NCBI GenBank assembly: GCA_947053455.1
Contig: CAMRSV010000006.1
Location: 1 to 36,186, forward strand
DNA: 36,186 nt
Source of the DNA: an uncultured Alphaproteobacteria bacterium
GTDB lineage: Bacteria > Pseudomonadota > Alphaproteobacteria > Rs-D84
Reading direction: 5' to 3'
Below the pieces are notes generated by a model. The model had not been told where the DNA came from, did not search any database, and saw nothing but the letters and a program-made list of their open reading frames with translations. Every line of letters starts with the position of its first letter. The first letter of the stretch is position 1. The translations under genes and the position numbers were made by a program. Shown one piece after another: positions 9,087 through 34,501 of this stretch.

Positions 9087-9115
9087 TTGCCCGAAAATCT
9101 GTTTTAATATAAAAT
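9087..9115 (+). promoter_or_regulatory. Promoter of structured leader RNA copy C
   Basis: TTGCCC (9087-9092), a 17-bp spacer and TAAAAT (9110-9115) form a sigma-70-type promoter. Transcription would start at about 9120-9122, at the base of the first hairpin of the leader RNA. The -35 lies within the T-rich flank of the argS terminator. Confidence 0.65.
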
Positions 9116-9119
9116 AAAA

Positions 9120-9292
9120 CCGATGCGATGAGTTGTCGCATCGGGGCGTCGAAACCCACCATTGTGTTGCCGGGGTACTGGCAAAAAATCTCCTGCAAAG
9201 TGCAGGAGGGTCGGTGAATATAAAATAACCGACGCTATTTCACAATGGATAGTTTCGAACCTCCTGCCACCTGAATTTTTAGGTGGTTTTTT
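9120..9292 (+). ncRNA. Structured pseudoknot leader RNA, copy C (upstream of serine protease)
   Basis: Helices read directly from the sequence, 5' to 3': hairpin 1, 9120-9128 with 9136-9144 (9 bp); pseudoknot strand 9159-9166; hairpin 2, 9167-9171 with 9180-9184; switch hairpin, 9190-9196 with 9202-9208; hairpin 3, 9210-9214 with 9229-9233, loop rich in GAATATA and AATAA; hairpin 4, 9234-9238 with 9249-9253, whose loop 9241-9248 pairs perfectly (8 bp) with 9159-9166; then CCTCCTGC at 9260-9267, which pairs alternatively with 9202-9209 (8 bp). A terminator follows directly. The same architecture recurs at 17875-18045 and 34220-34392. It is probably a cis-regulatory RNA; ligand and mechanism are unknown. 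Confidence 0.8.
9267..9292 (+). terminator. Leader terminator/attenuator of copy C
   Basis: CCACCT (9267-9272) pairs with AGGTGG (9281-9286) and is followed by six T. It lies between the structured RNA and the Shine-Dalgarno (AGGAG, 9295-9299) of the protease gene, the classic place for a transcription attenuator. Its stem abuts the closing helix of the leader RNA, with one shared base. Confidence 0.8.
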
Positions 9293-9304
9293 ATAGGAGA
9301 AAAA

Positions 9305-10951
9305 ATGTTTTATAAATACTTATTGGCCATACTGTTTGCCACCCATTGCATAACCGCCCACGGTGGCGTCGGTTCAATTGATGAACGAAAATATGTTGAT
9401 TGGAATTCTTATCCATATAATCAAATTGTGTATTTTTTTACACGAGAATATGGCACCTGTACCGCCCAATATGTTGCAAAAGATATAATTCTAACTGCGC
9501 GTCACTGCATTACAAAAGACACAGACTTTGACAACAACAAGCATATTGGTGAATTGTTCACAATAAAACTGCACGACGGGCGAAAAACACAAATTAAACT
9601 GGAAAAATACGGTCATGACTTTGCATCCGACGACTGGGCCTTGCTACGTGTCAAGGATACGAATTTTTTCAGCAATAACGCGTTCACGGTATCCAGCCAA
9701 TCCAAGATATTGACCGTCACCAATGCCGGCTTCGGCTATATGCGAATACTAAAAGACAACGAAATAAAAAAACTAAAACAAATTTTTAAGAAAAACGCAA
9801 AACAACACGGCCTATCTAAAACCAACTTTTTGAACCTGATAGTGCCAAGCGTGCAAGATACCAAGGCGAACGGAATACCACCGCTTATTGATTGGACAGA
9901 TGAAACAACACAATGCCTAACGGGTGCCAATCCCGATGATTGCACCCTGGAGTATAAACTGAAGGCACATATAGACTGCAAACTTATAGAAATAGATTCA
10001 AAGGATAAAATAATCAGCAGTGACTGTGATGCAATGCAGGGAAATTCCGGCGGTCCATATTTTGCAAATAACACCATATACGGCATCGTCAGCCGCGGTC
10101 GCGACAGTTTTAAGGACACGCGATATGGCAACGAATTAGCAGTCACCCCGAGTTTAATCTGGAAAAACCTGCAAAATATACTGTTGGAAAACACAAATAC
10201 CATTCAAACAATTCAGGTGACCGAAACGTCCGACATAAGCGAACAAGAATTACATCGTCGTGAACACGATTTAACCGAACGCGCAAAAAATATCGACGAC
10301 CAGTCCGACAAGGAATTTTTCTATTTTCTATCCGATGCGACCGAATACGTGGCATTGCAAAAACAATATGAACGCGCCAAGGCGCGGGAACAATCACTGG
10401 GGAACAGGCTGCTGGGGGCGTTGGCGATTGGCGCCGCGGGCATCGGCGGTCAAATGCTAATGCAGGGGCGTGCCGAACAACAGGCCGATGCGGCCGCTGA
10501 ATCCGACATGCGCGCATATATTGAAACATTTCGATGCGATTTCGGTGTGGGGCGCAATATTCGCGGCGGCACGGAAAAAATAGAACTGCCCGGTGGAAAT
10601 ACGCTGACGCAACAAAAAGCGGAATATATAAATTTGGCCAAACGCATACAAGAGGCAAAGGCTGCATTAGACATGGCGCCGGGAATAGAATCTGAATTAG
10701 TATTGGACGCGGCAAATTCCGGATTGTACGACAATGAAAGCCTGGGCCGAACGGGTGGGGCGTACACATCCGTATCACGGGCCCTGATGGACAAGGACAG
10801 TACTGATGCCGCCACGTTCACGGAACAAAAAAGCGCGGCAAAAAAGAAGGCAACAACAGGCGCAATTGTCGGCGGCGTCGGCGTTATCGGCGGTGCGGTT
10901 GGAAACATGATTATAAACCGCGATAAAGATAAAAGCGAAAGCCAAAAATAA
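9305..10951 (+). CDS. Secreted trypsin-like serine protease with Gly-rich C-terminal domain
   Basis: A 548-residue protein with a signal peptide (about 1-19) and a chymotrypsin-fold domain with a complete triad: His 67 in LTARHC, Asp 110 in DDWALL and Ser 248 in GNSGGP. A charged helical stretch follows (about 300-360), then a Gly-rich segment that could enter a membrane (about 372-388). The C-terminal domain has a conserved-looking core and ends in another Gly/Val-rich segment and a Lys-rich tail. The C-terminal part resembles domains I recall from exported proteins of gut alphaproteobacteria; its function is unknown. The protease is probably periplasmic or surface-associated. It follows the structured leader RNA and has a good Shine-Dalgarno. 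Confidence 0.85.
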   Translation: MFYKYLLAILFATHCITAHGGVGSIDERKYVDWNSYPYNQIVYFFTREYGTCTAQYVAKDIILTARHCITKDTDFDNNKHIGELFTIKLHDGRKTQIKLEKYGHDFASDDWALLRVKDTNFFSNNAFTVSSQSKILTVTNAGFGYMRILKDNEIKKLKQIFKKNAKQHGLSKTNFLNLIVPSVQDTKANGIPPLIDWTDETTQCLTGANPDDCTLEYKLKAHIDCKLIEIDSKDKIISSDCDAMQGNSGGPYFANNTIYGIVSRGRDSFKDTRYGNELAVTPSLIWKNLQNILLENTNTIQTIQVTETSDISEQELHRREHDLTERAKNIDDQSDKEFFYFLSDATEYVALQKQYERAKAREQSLGNRLLGALAIGAAGIGGQMLMQGRAEQQADAAAESDMRAYIETFRCDFGVGRNIRGGTEKIELPGGNTLTQQKAEYINLAKRIQEAKAALDMAPGIESELVLDAANSGLYDNESLGRTGGAYTSVSRALMDKDSTDAATFTEQKSAAKKKATTGAIVGGVGVIGGAVGNMIINRDKDKSESQK

Positions 10952-17840: not shown

Positions 17841-17868
17841 TTGCATCCGTTAATTTTTATGATACAAT
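17841..17868 (+). promoter_or_regulatory. Promoter of structured leader RNA copy A
   Basis: TTGCAT (17841-17846), 16 bp and TACAAT (17863-17868). The start would be near 17875. The same promoter, with one base changed in the -10, precedes copy B. The stretch 17746-17840 before it shows nothing else recognisable. Confidence 0.65.
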
Positions 17869-17874
17869 GCACAT

Positions 17875-18045
17875 CGCAAAGGGAAACCGGCGCATGGGTA
17901 TGATAACCCATCCAACGTGTCAGAAGTGACATTAAACACAAAAACTCCATTGGTTGGAGGGTCGTGAATATATTGAATAAGCGACACTATCGTTGGTAGT
18001 TATCATCCTCCAGCCGTTTGGTTTTTCCAGACGGTTTTGTTTTTT
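17875..18045 (+). ncRNA. Structured pseudoknot leader RNA, copy A (upstream of XRE regulator)
   Basis: Hairpin 1 is 17894-17899 with 17906-17911; pseudoknot strand CCAACG 17912-17917; hairpin 2, 17918-17922 with 17927-17931; switch hairpin CTCCA 17945-17949 with TGGAG 17955-17959; hairpin 3, 17961-17965 with 17981-17985, loop GAATATATTGAATAA; hairpin 4, 17986-17989 with 17997-18000. Its loop CGTTGG (17991-17996) pairs perfectly with 17912-17917. GGTTGGAGG (17952-17960) can instead pair with CCTCCAGCC (18007-18015), 9 bp with one G-U. The gap between hairpin 4 and CCTCC is 6 nt, as in the other copies. Terminator stem 18014-18034 abuts it. Confidence 0.82.
18014..18045 (+). terminator. Leader terminator/attenuator of copy A, with antiterminator option
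   Basis: CCGTTTGG (18014-18021) pairs with CCAGACGG (18027-18034), 8 bp with one G-U, followed by TTTTGTTTTTT. GTTTGGTT (18016-18023) can instead pair with AACCAAAC (18046-18053), 8 bp perfect, which would remove the terminator. Copy B has the same sequence. Confidence 0.8.
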
Positions 18046-18067
18046 AACCAAACAAATGGAGTATAAA

Positions 18068-18427
18068 ATGACAGAAAGTAAATCACGGCAAATTCGTGAA
18101 AAAATTGTTCGTTCAACATATGGCACCACCAAAACCGTTGGTGATATGATAAAGCAGGCGCGGATAGCATTGGGGCTGTCACGTACATATGTTGCATATC
18201 GTATGGGTGTTGGCGTTGGAACATGGCACGCATATGAATACGATAAACTGGTTGTGCCATCACATATTCTGATAAAACTGTTTATGTTCGGGTTTGATTT
18301 TTTCTATCCATATCCGTTGCGATTTACGGATTTGGAAACGCCACCCGTTGTTGGCGAATATATCCCGAAAAAACTAAATAACAAAACACAGCCGCCTCAA
18401 CCGCCCCGTCACAATACTAATGCTTAA
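18068..18427 (+). CDS. Small XRE-family HTH regulator
   Basis: A 119-residue protein with an XRE/Cro-type HTH (about 24-62): TVGDMIKQARIALGLSRTYVA, then a recognition-helix region and a GTWHAYE segment where the family often has a W/Y-x-x-[YW]-E. The C-terminal third (80-119) is Pro-rich and low complexity. I take the start at 18068, after TGGAG Shine-Dalgarno at 18057-18061, because the longer open frame runs through the leader terminator. Targets are unknown; neighbours suggest autoregulation or control of the RNA family's other sites, which is inference only. Confidence 0.8.
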   Translation: MTESKSRQIREKIVRSTYGTTKTVGDMIKQARIALGLSRTYVAYRMGVGVGTWHAYEYDKLVVPSHILIKLFMFGFDFFYPYPLRFTDLETPPVVGEYIPKKLNNKTQPPQPPRHNTNA

Positions 18428-34219: not shown

Positions 34220-34392
34220 TGCAAAGGGAAACCGGCGCATGGGTGTAAGAACCCATCAAAGTCTGTCGAAAGACATAAAATTAAACTCCACGATTGGTTG
34301 GAGGCCCACGATATATTTGAATAAGTGGGACTATTGACTTTGATAGTTCTTAACCTCCAGCCGTTTGGTTTTTCCAGACGGTTTTGTTTTTT
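34220..34392 (+). ncRNA. Structured pseudoknot leader RNA, copy B (orphan)
   Basis: Hairpin 1 is 34239-34244 with 34251-34256; pseudoknot strand CAAAGTC 34257-34263; hairpin 2, 34264-34267 with 34272-34275 and a GAAA tetraloop; switch hairpin CTCCA 34286-34290 with TGGAG 34299-34303; hairpin 3, CCCAC 34305-34309 with GTGGG 34325-34329; hairpin 4, 34330-34334 with 34343-34347. Its loop GACTTTG (34336-34342) pairs perfectly (7 bp) with 34257-34263. CCTCCAGCC (34354-34362) is the alternative partner of GGTTGGAGG (34296-34304). Terminator 34361-34392. Paralogous to copy A; pseudoknot and hairpin 3 sequences differ from A but stay paired. Confidence 0.82.
34361..34392 (+). terminator. Leader terminator/attenuator of copy B
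   Basis: CCGTTTGG (34361-34368) pairs with CCAGACGG (34374-34381), followed by TTTTGTTTTTT. As in copy A, GTTTGGTT (34363-34370) can pair with AACCAAAC (34393-34400) instead. Confidence 0.8.
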
Positions 34393-34414: not shown

Positions 34415-34501
34415 ATGTCAAAATACAAACCCAAAAGCCAAACAACGCCAATGCTTAACAAAAAATCCCCCATTCGGGGGATTTTTATTTGCGCAACTTG
34501 A
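34415..34501 (+). pseudogene. Mini-ORF after leader RNA copy B, remnant of an XRE-type gene
   Basis: TGGAG (34404-34408) and ATG (34415) are preserved exactly as before the XRE gene at 18068, but only 28 codons follow and they run through the shared terminator hairpin. The bases around 34451-34490 match the end of the XRE gene and its terminator (AATGCTTAA, then the CCCCCATTCGGGGG hairpin). It therefore looks like copy A with nearly all of its coding sequence deleted and the frame lost. A functional small peptide cannot be ruled out. Confidence 0.55.
34464..34490. terminator. Bidirectional terminator between copy B and gdhA
   Basis: AAATCCCCC and GGGGGATTT pair around ATTC, with T tracts on both sides. 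It ends copy B on plus and gdhA on minus and is nearly identical to the terminator at 18437-18465. Confidence 0.88.

Follow-up and report, generated by a model that had tools for sequence, protein, structure and literature searches.

Among riboswitches with a terminator/antiterminator expression platform, the one nearest in function to the leader RNA described here is c-di-GMP-I (GEMM), a class that likewise acts on numerous surface genes. The likeness to riboswitches of this kind lies in the 5' leader position, conservation of the fold, mutually exclusive helices that end in an intrinsic terminator, numerous copies per genome, tandem copies, and surface-related genes; unlike c-di-GMP-I, however, the present leader has no Rfam match and appears to have a fold with two interleaved long-range helices. 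T-box leaders are also numerous within a genome, each in front of its own gene, and have an antiterminator-terminator choice comparable to that between helices P4 and P5 below and a part that varies from gene to gene, but our leader has no T-box match in Rfam, the genes behind it are not amino-acid or tRNA-synthetase genes, and its variable strands pair internally. In antisense attenuators of the pT181 type, which include orthogonal families (PMC3753616), the variable pairing sequence also differs among members, whereas here the partner strands lie in the same molecule and no systematic antisense promoter was seen. The ToxI RNA of type III toxin-antitoxin systems is a pseudoknotted RNA, sometimes in tandem, followed by a terminator and then a protein gene; in contrast, the proteins led by our RNA are secreted or helix-turn-helix proteins and not like ToxN, CptN or TenpN, and the unit is about 160 nt long and not a short repeat array. 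In a by-eye reading of the copies for a leader-peptide attenuator, no start codon or frame looked conserved. From sequence comparison, the leader RNA appears to be a cis-acting transcription attenuator of a new class, probably akin to a riboswitch.

The window, by which we mean the whole 36,186-nt stretch of DNA that was analysed, contains three copies of the leader (A, B and C), all on the forward strand. The preliminary description stated that the loop of hairpin 4 pairs without mismatch with an upstream strand in each copy, and a script re-check returned the three perfect pairings at the same positions. Strand c lies directly 3' of hairpin 1 and its partner c' is the loop of hairpin 4, of which the stem is short (CTAT/ATAG in copies A and C, ACTA/TAGT in copy B). 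The pairs are CCATTGTG (9159-9166) with CACAATGG (9241-9248) in copy A, CCAACG (17912-17917) with CGTTGG (17991-17996) in copy B, and CAAAGTC (34257-34263) with GACTTTG (34336-34342) in copy C, at intervals of 74, 73 and 72 nt, respectively. The spacing of 72-74 nt had been called fixed, which holds for the three window copies only, because the interval from c to c' across the family has a median of 74 nt and ranges from 31 to 118 nt. Copies A and B had been taken as recent paralogues; a blastn search with copy B instead recovers C and not A, and it is B and C that are close paralogues (83% identical). The observation itself is real and was understated, as c-c' is one helix of a larger leader RNA.

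In the genome that contains the window (915 kb in 21 contigs, 96% complete), blastn with copy B gives 29 matches. A covariance model built from 22 copies (R1) finds 53 matches there at E <= 1 and 49 at E <= 0.001, that is, about 50 copies. Six contigs of this genome (C3, C7, C10, C14, C18 and C19) end in or beside a leader copy; assemblies therefore probably break at these repeats, and the copy counts are lower bounds. Within the genus, R1 matches were found in 54 of 59 genomes (1-51 copies each); the family has them in 137 of 142 genomes, covering all 13 genera, and the order in 169 of 190 genomes, covering 17 of 22 genera. They are rare in the class (12 of 289 genomes) and occur in two of 299 genomes sampled from the phylum, both of the same genus, with none outside that genus. 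When the distant matches were read out, many were seen to keep b-b', c-c', d-d', the H3 loop, CTTCC or CCTCC, the terminator and the start codon, and for this reason they look genuine. One divergent leader, in another alphaproteobacterial family, lies 5' of a BRO/anti-repressor-like protein of prophage type (L159:673-1455). A strict motif pattern gave two isolated matches in named genomes, in Paenibacillus and Lachnospiraceae, which we take as chance. No match was found in Rfam 15 for the window copies (E <= 1) or for eight further loci (E <= 0.5); the searches returned only tRNAs and sub-threshold noise, and a known RNA family was therefore rejected. Such an RNA was not found described in a literature search, where absence is no proof of absence, and a keyword check of the main text of a recent survey of structured bacterial RNAs (PMC11109978) gave none either.

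That c-c' is unlikely to arise by chance, as the preliminary description held, is borne out by partner shuffles and by counts of exact 5-mers, which rule chance out as its source. In a first set of 157 copies, the hairpin-4 loop can form with the strand that follows hairpin 1 a Watson-Crick run whose greatest length is on average 6.4 bp, compared with 3.5 bp when loops are reassigned among copies, and the exact complement of the last 5 nt of the loop is present in the c window of 132 of 153 copies, whereas 5.6 are expected. The helix is not part of the covariance model and was assessed separately. Among the homologues, no position of c-c' lacks any of the four Watson-Crick pairs. With relaxed segmentation, the helix has at least 5 bp in 238 of 256 copies (~93%), with 199 distinct c sequences. 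Changes on one strand only, which would speak against selection on the pairing, are rare: the helix falls below 5 bp in 18 of the 256 copies, several of them degenerate or misplaced. Imperfect positions are G-U in 13 cases and A-C in one, so that c-c' acts as RNA of this strand.

A second long-range helix, b-b', is as strong as c-c' and was absent from the earlier account. It joins the loop of hairpin 1 (TCGAA, ATGATA and TAAGA in copies A, B and C) to the strand directly after hairpin 4. The strands follow one another along the RNA as a, b, a', c, hairpin H2, P4, H3, d, c', d' and b'; b-b' and c-c' are nested within each other, and each crosses one hairpin stem. A seed alignment made by MAFFT without structure shows double-sided changes in 14 of 19 pairs, with a covariation of 0.522 against <=0.115 for slid partners. 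Among 106 distinct copies, double changes occur in 14 of the 15 modelled pairs, covariation is 0.636 against <=0.078 for slid controls, and 98.9% of cells are paired, although these counts, which cover b-b', H3 and d-d', lean towards the modelled structure because the alignment was fitted to it. In the same copies, double changes are seen at all six pairs of b-b' (99.5% of cells paired) and all five pairs of the H3 stem. H3 is a hairpin with a conserved internal loop, GA..AATAA, the strongest conservation outside the switch strand. The stem d-d' also changes on both sides (CTAT/ATAG, CAAT/ATTG and others), and a-a' and d-d' covary independently of the long-range helices. Homologues with covarying pairs thus give strong support to selection on c-c' within a compact multi-helix RNA. 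Arrays of at least three tandem leaders with different c sequences exist in the window's genome and in genome G010 (L167, L177 and L220); some of their d-d' stems are aberrant (GCA/TGC, AGC/GCT), and no led gene was recognised after several of the leaders.

The preliminary description called the pairing a pseudoknot. The long-range pairing is real, but the label needs a-a' and d-d' to coexist with b-b' and c-c'; either they do, which would give two interleaved pseudoknots, or the two sets alternate. Energy folding, which cannot draw pseudoknots, gives helices of the b-b' and c-c' type nested in all three copies, together with the terminator hairpin. Each long-range helix crosses a hairpin stem that covaries independently, on which ground a plain nested-hairpin fold was rejected. 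Strand c' is confined to the loop of d-d' and, in 148 of 153 copies, leaves 0-3 nt of it unoccupied, with loop lengths of at least 5 nt. Because c' sits in this loop and fills nearly all of it, coexistence is preferred, and the sequences thus favour hairpins and long-range helices formed simultaneously as two pseudoknots; a nested fold without a pseudoknot may be possible according to the folding model. Loop length also correlates with c-helix length (rho 0.83), which was not used as proof because it is partly built in, the helix having been sought within the loop.

One G-rich strand of the leader has two complementary partners, one upstream (giving helix P4) and one downstream (giving helix P5). 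P4 is mostly 5-10 bp long, and in 213 of 232 copies P5 has 9-13 bp. The commonest G strand is GGTTGGAGG, with CCTCCAACC as its downstream P5 partner. Where the G strand differs, both partners change together: GGTCAGGAGG goes with CTCCTGACC and CCTCCTGACC, GGCGAGAGGT with the altered partners GCCTCTCGC and ACCTCTCGCC, and GCAGGAGG of copy A with CTCCTGC and CCTCCTGC. Non-consensus G strands form 7.5 bp with their own P4 arm, compared with 5.4 bp with the arms of other copies. Of 232 copies, 206 have an intrinsic terminator (median -10 kcal/mol), whose 5' arm in most cases shares 2-6 nt with P5; about 11% of copies have no terminator by the rule used, which counts against an attenuator. Upstream, TATAAT boxes, resembling the -10 element of sigma-70, peak at -35 to -31 of the modelled core, and a perfect box occurs in the upstream stretch of 82 of 153 copies, compared with 14 in shuffles. 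Downstream, the start codon lies 42-66 nt 3' of CCTCC (5-95% range; median 53 nt), so near that little space is left for a separate promoter between terminator and gene.

Copy A contains all these elements. A probable -10 box, TATAAA (9108-9113), lies 34 nt 5' of the modelled core and matches the family TATAAT peak. Hairpin H0 (CCGATGCGA/TCGCATCGG, 9120-9144; read directly and by folding) forms the 5' end of the predicted transcript and is followed by hairpin 1 (9144-9157), which was identified by reading, covariation and folding and has the stem a-a' GGG/CCC with b (TCGAA) in its loop. Strand b, TCGAAAC (9149-9155), pairs with b', GTTTCGA (9252-9258), in agreement with the family covariation and with folding. 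The code of its strand c is also carried by the orthologue in genome G010. Next come the variable hairpin H2 (TTGCC/GGCAA, 9167-9184) and P4 (CTCCTGC/GCAGGAG, 9190-9208), both predicted by folding; by comparison of the three strands, P4 shares its G strand with P5. This G strand, GCAGGAGG (9202-9209), pairs with either the P4 5' arm or CCTCCTGC, as the three-strand covariation of the family indicates. H3 (GTCGG/CCGAC, 9210-9233), supported by covariation of its stem and by the GA...AATAA conservation, bears the conserved loop TGAATATAAAATAA. Hairpin 4 (9235-9252) has the d-d' stem CTAT/ATAG, which covaries to CAAT/ATTG, and its loop is c', found by direct reading and folding. The P5 3' strand CCTCCTGC (9260-9267; folding and family comparison) adjoins the intrinsic terminator (GCCACCT...AGGTGGT plus T run, 9266-9292). 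After a Shine-Dalgarno sequence, AGGAG (9295-9299), the led gene (9305-10951) encodes a trypsin-like protease (Pfam PF00089, E 4e-14) with an N-terminal signal peptide by a crude rule.

Copy B has a probable -10 box, TACAAT (17863-17868), with TTTGCA 17 nt upstream. Folding gives hairpin 1 (ATGGGT/ACCCAT, 17894-17911) with b, ATGATA (17900-17905), in its loop, H2 (TGTCA/TGACA, 17918-17931), P4 (CTCCA/TGGAG, 17945-17959), hairpin 4 (17986-18000) with c' in its loop, and strand b' (TATCAT, 18001-18006). Close relatives of this copy have CCACAG/CTGTGG and CCAGTG/CACTGG in place of its c-c' pair. The switch strand is GGTTGGAGG (17952-17960), with CCTCCAGCC (18007-18015) as its P5 partner (folding and family comparison). 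H3 (GTCG/CGAC, 17961-17985; covariation and folding) carries the conserved loop TGAATATATTGAATAAG. The P5 3' strand and the intrinsic terminator (18014-18045) together span 18007-18045 by folding. The led gene (18068-18427, ATG at 18068, Shine-Dalgarno GGAG at 18058-18061) encodes a 119-aa helix-turn-helix protein, whose PF13560 match (E 7.5e-4) is below the curated cut-off.

Copy C folds into hairpin 1 (ATGGGT/ACCCAT, 34239-34256) with b, TAAGA (34246-34250), in the loop, P4 (CTCCA/TGGAG, 34286-34303) with the G strand GGTTGGAGG (34296-34304), H3 (CCCAC/GTGGG, 34305-34329) with the conserved loop, hairpin 4 (34331-34346), and the P5 3' strand CCTCCAGCC (34354-34362) with a terminator (34361-34390). 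Its strand c was identified by direct reading and folding. Strand b', GTTCTTA (34346-34352), read directly, faces TAAGAAC (34246-34252), the inner five pairs being script-checked. The short ORF behind it (34415-34501, 28 codons) starts MSKYKPKSQT like the helix-turn-helix gene after L007 and L038 and then diverges. It appears to be a truncated remnant of the helix-turn-helix gene that follows related copies, and copy C looks like a leader whose gene was deleted.

Covariation establishes the structure and the switch strands at the level of sequence comparison, and the leader RNA has the anatomy of a transcription attenuator; we infer its function, direction and cue. Three features expected of a riboswitch are found: a 5' leader position, with the -10 box upstream and the start codon downstream; a covarying structure conserved across species; and, as far as can be read from sequence, an expression platform in which P4, P5 and the terminator are mutually exclusive. 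We consider it fairly probable that the copies are 5' leaders of mRNAs and act in cis as transcription attenuators, candidate riboswitches of a new class. While P4 holds, the terminator would form and the gene would be off; were P5 to form, the terminator would be blocked and RNA polymerase would read through. The paired core (b-b', c-c' and H3) would sense a cue common to all copies and choose P4 or P5; as the cue, a small molecule or an ion that binds the junction and the conserved loop of H3 would be the most likely. Because b-b' and c-c' nest with P4 and cross P5, a stabilised core is suggested to favour P4 and termination; this direction is uncertain, and coexistence of b-b' and c-c' with P5 is possible. 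In two leaders that stand first in a tandem arrangement (L032:1918-2038 and L182:680-800), the T run directly follows P5; P5 itself may terminate in these, and the logic there would then be reversed. The core of a riboswitch normally shows little sequence variation; in the leader core, strong conservation is confined to H3 and the switch strand, which counts against the riboswitch reading.

The genes so controlled in genome-reduced Alphaproteobacteria would encode small regulatory proteins and proteins that are secreted or belong to the cell surface. Signal peptides (by the crude rule) are predicted for 50 of 109 distinct led genes (46%) but for 60 of 402 others in the same stretches (15%; odds ratio 4.8, p 6e-11). 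Small helix-turn-helix proteins are frequent (18 of 89 led genes match HTH_31), and other led families include outer-membrane barrels, Surface_Ag_2, Stealth, other surface-sugar transferases/glycosyltransferase, ABC transporter and trypsin. Among the Pfam and NCBIfam matches, helix-turn-helix proteins, outer-membrane barrels and other surface proteins are the commonest. The led genes have no common metabolic pathway that would name a ligand. In the window's own genome, no match to GGDEF (PF00990) was found, and RelA/SpoT (PF04607) and Hfq were not detected, while controls worked; c-di-GMP is therefore unlikely as a cell-made ligand, and ppGpp made by the cell was likewise rejected as the cue. 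Candidatus Enterousia (order Rs-D84, Alphaproteobacteria) comprises gut bacteria with reduced genomes and a partner-dependent lifestyle (PMC12306168). A leader with the code TTACGAG is kept together with a conserved long protein (MSTARIVQRPIIVDKSGKTV...) in six species (L062, L091, L092, L066, L096 and L113), and in one genome paralogous small Cys-containing secreted proteins (MKKHLIIAGIICAASIPPAYAVTKC...) each have their own leader and code (L094, L098, L120, L125, L131 and relatives).

The same leaders might instead be bound by a protein, for example at the conserved H3 loop, that controls termination as in ribosomal-protein or antiterminator-protein leaders. The internal loop GA..AATAA has the usual form of a protein site, and the many small helix-turn-helix proteins among the led genes would suit such a reading; most led genes, however, encode proteins other than RNA-binding ones, and their diversity is too great for simple autoregulation, and two long-range helices exceed what a protein site usually needs. 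We regard a protein-controlled leader as rather unlikely.

The variable c strand raises the question of another RNA as the cue. Syntenic leaders of different species that are <=10% diverged elsewhere have identical c codes in nearly all pairs (~12 independent loci); copy A and its orthologue, for instance, both have CCATTGTG, at 6.2% divergence. By contrast, among 57 pairs of dispersed copies from the same genome that are <=13% diverged elsewhere, one has a common c code, and on average 34% of c/c' positions differ, even though both strands must change. The pairs in these comparisons are non-independent, and low divergence outside c can also come from conserved cores or short-tract gene conversion. 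Tandem copies have common codes in some cases and different ones in others, and several share both codes while diverging elsewhere. A trans RNA, perhaps the terminated leader of the same locus, could pair with c before c' is made and tip the choice between P4 and P5, with c/c' (and b/b') as the address, as antisense RNA does in pT181-type attenuators; the code contrast between orthologues and dispersed paralogues and the tandem copies with shared codes are in keeping with this. However, a scan of the reverse strand for the -10 consensus found no clear antisense start common to the leaders, Hfq was not detected, codes are not less cross-compatible within genomes than between them in the full sets, and short-tract gene conversion, with one-strand changes in c-c' being harmful, could give the same paralogue pattern without an address. 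A trans-RNA cue is accordingly judged unlikely. Genome-wide orthogonality of the c codes, indicated in the first set (p 0.0135 at >=5 bp), was rejected because it disappears in the full sets of four genomes. A role of c as antisense to its own mRNA was also rejected, the matches (4 and 6, with 1.6 and 2.3 expected) being too few and confounded by tandem copies.

The code contrast could further be read as an addressed attenuator, in which c/c' with b/b' would be a gene-specific code, kept at a locus between species and replaced on both strands on copying within a genome, so that up to some 50 near-identical switches in one cell would respond singly, for example each to its own terminated leader RNA. 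We find this idea doubtful and do not take it as the main explanation, because cross-pairing avoidance is negative, the pairs are dependent, gene conversion is possible and the tandem codes are mixed.

It is very unlikely that each copy is instead an independent gene for a trans-acting small RNA beside an incidental neighbour. Each has its own -10 box and terminator, and some, such as copy C, are without an intact led gene, but the T run is followed, after a short and almost constant distance, by a Shine-Dalgarno sequence and a start codon, the led genes are strongly biased in function, and the absence of a detected Hfq also speaks against it. Scarcely credible is the view of the repeats as mobile or selfish elements whose structure serves movement: copy numbers of 1 to 51 per genome and near-identical copies in different contexts, such as L038 and L111, would fit it, but viral contigs gave zero exact matches to the strict motif pattern, on which ground a phage element was rejected too, and orthologous positions are kept between species with placement consistently 5' of a start codon. 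The modelled cores of L038:1501-1615 and L111:1501-1616 are without substitution in two species, with different led genes and surroundings, which suggests recent leader swapping or transfer.

The sharp contrast between codes kept in orthologues and replaced in close paralogues offers a clean natural test of drift versus gene-specific information in leader pairing sequences. This structured RNA, without an Rfam entry, has about 50 copies in a 0.9-Mb genome and is found in nearly every species of a large, probably host-associated genus; in our judgement, which is not a measured ranking, it would rank among the densest cis-RNA regulons known. Its setting is cells in which no Hfq, RelA/SpoT or GGDEF signalling protein was detected, and the finding points to a largely RNA-based control of surface and secreted proteins in these uncultured bacteria.
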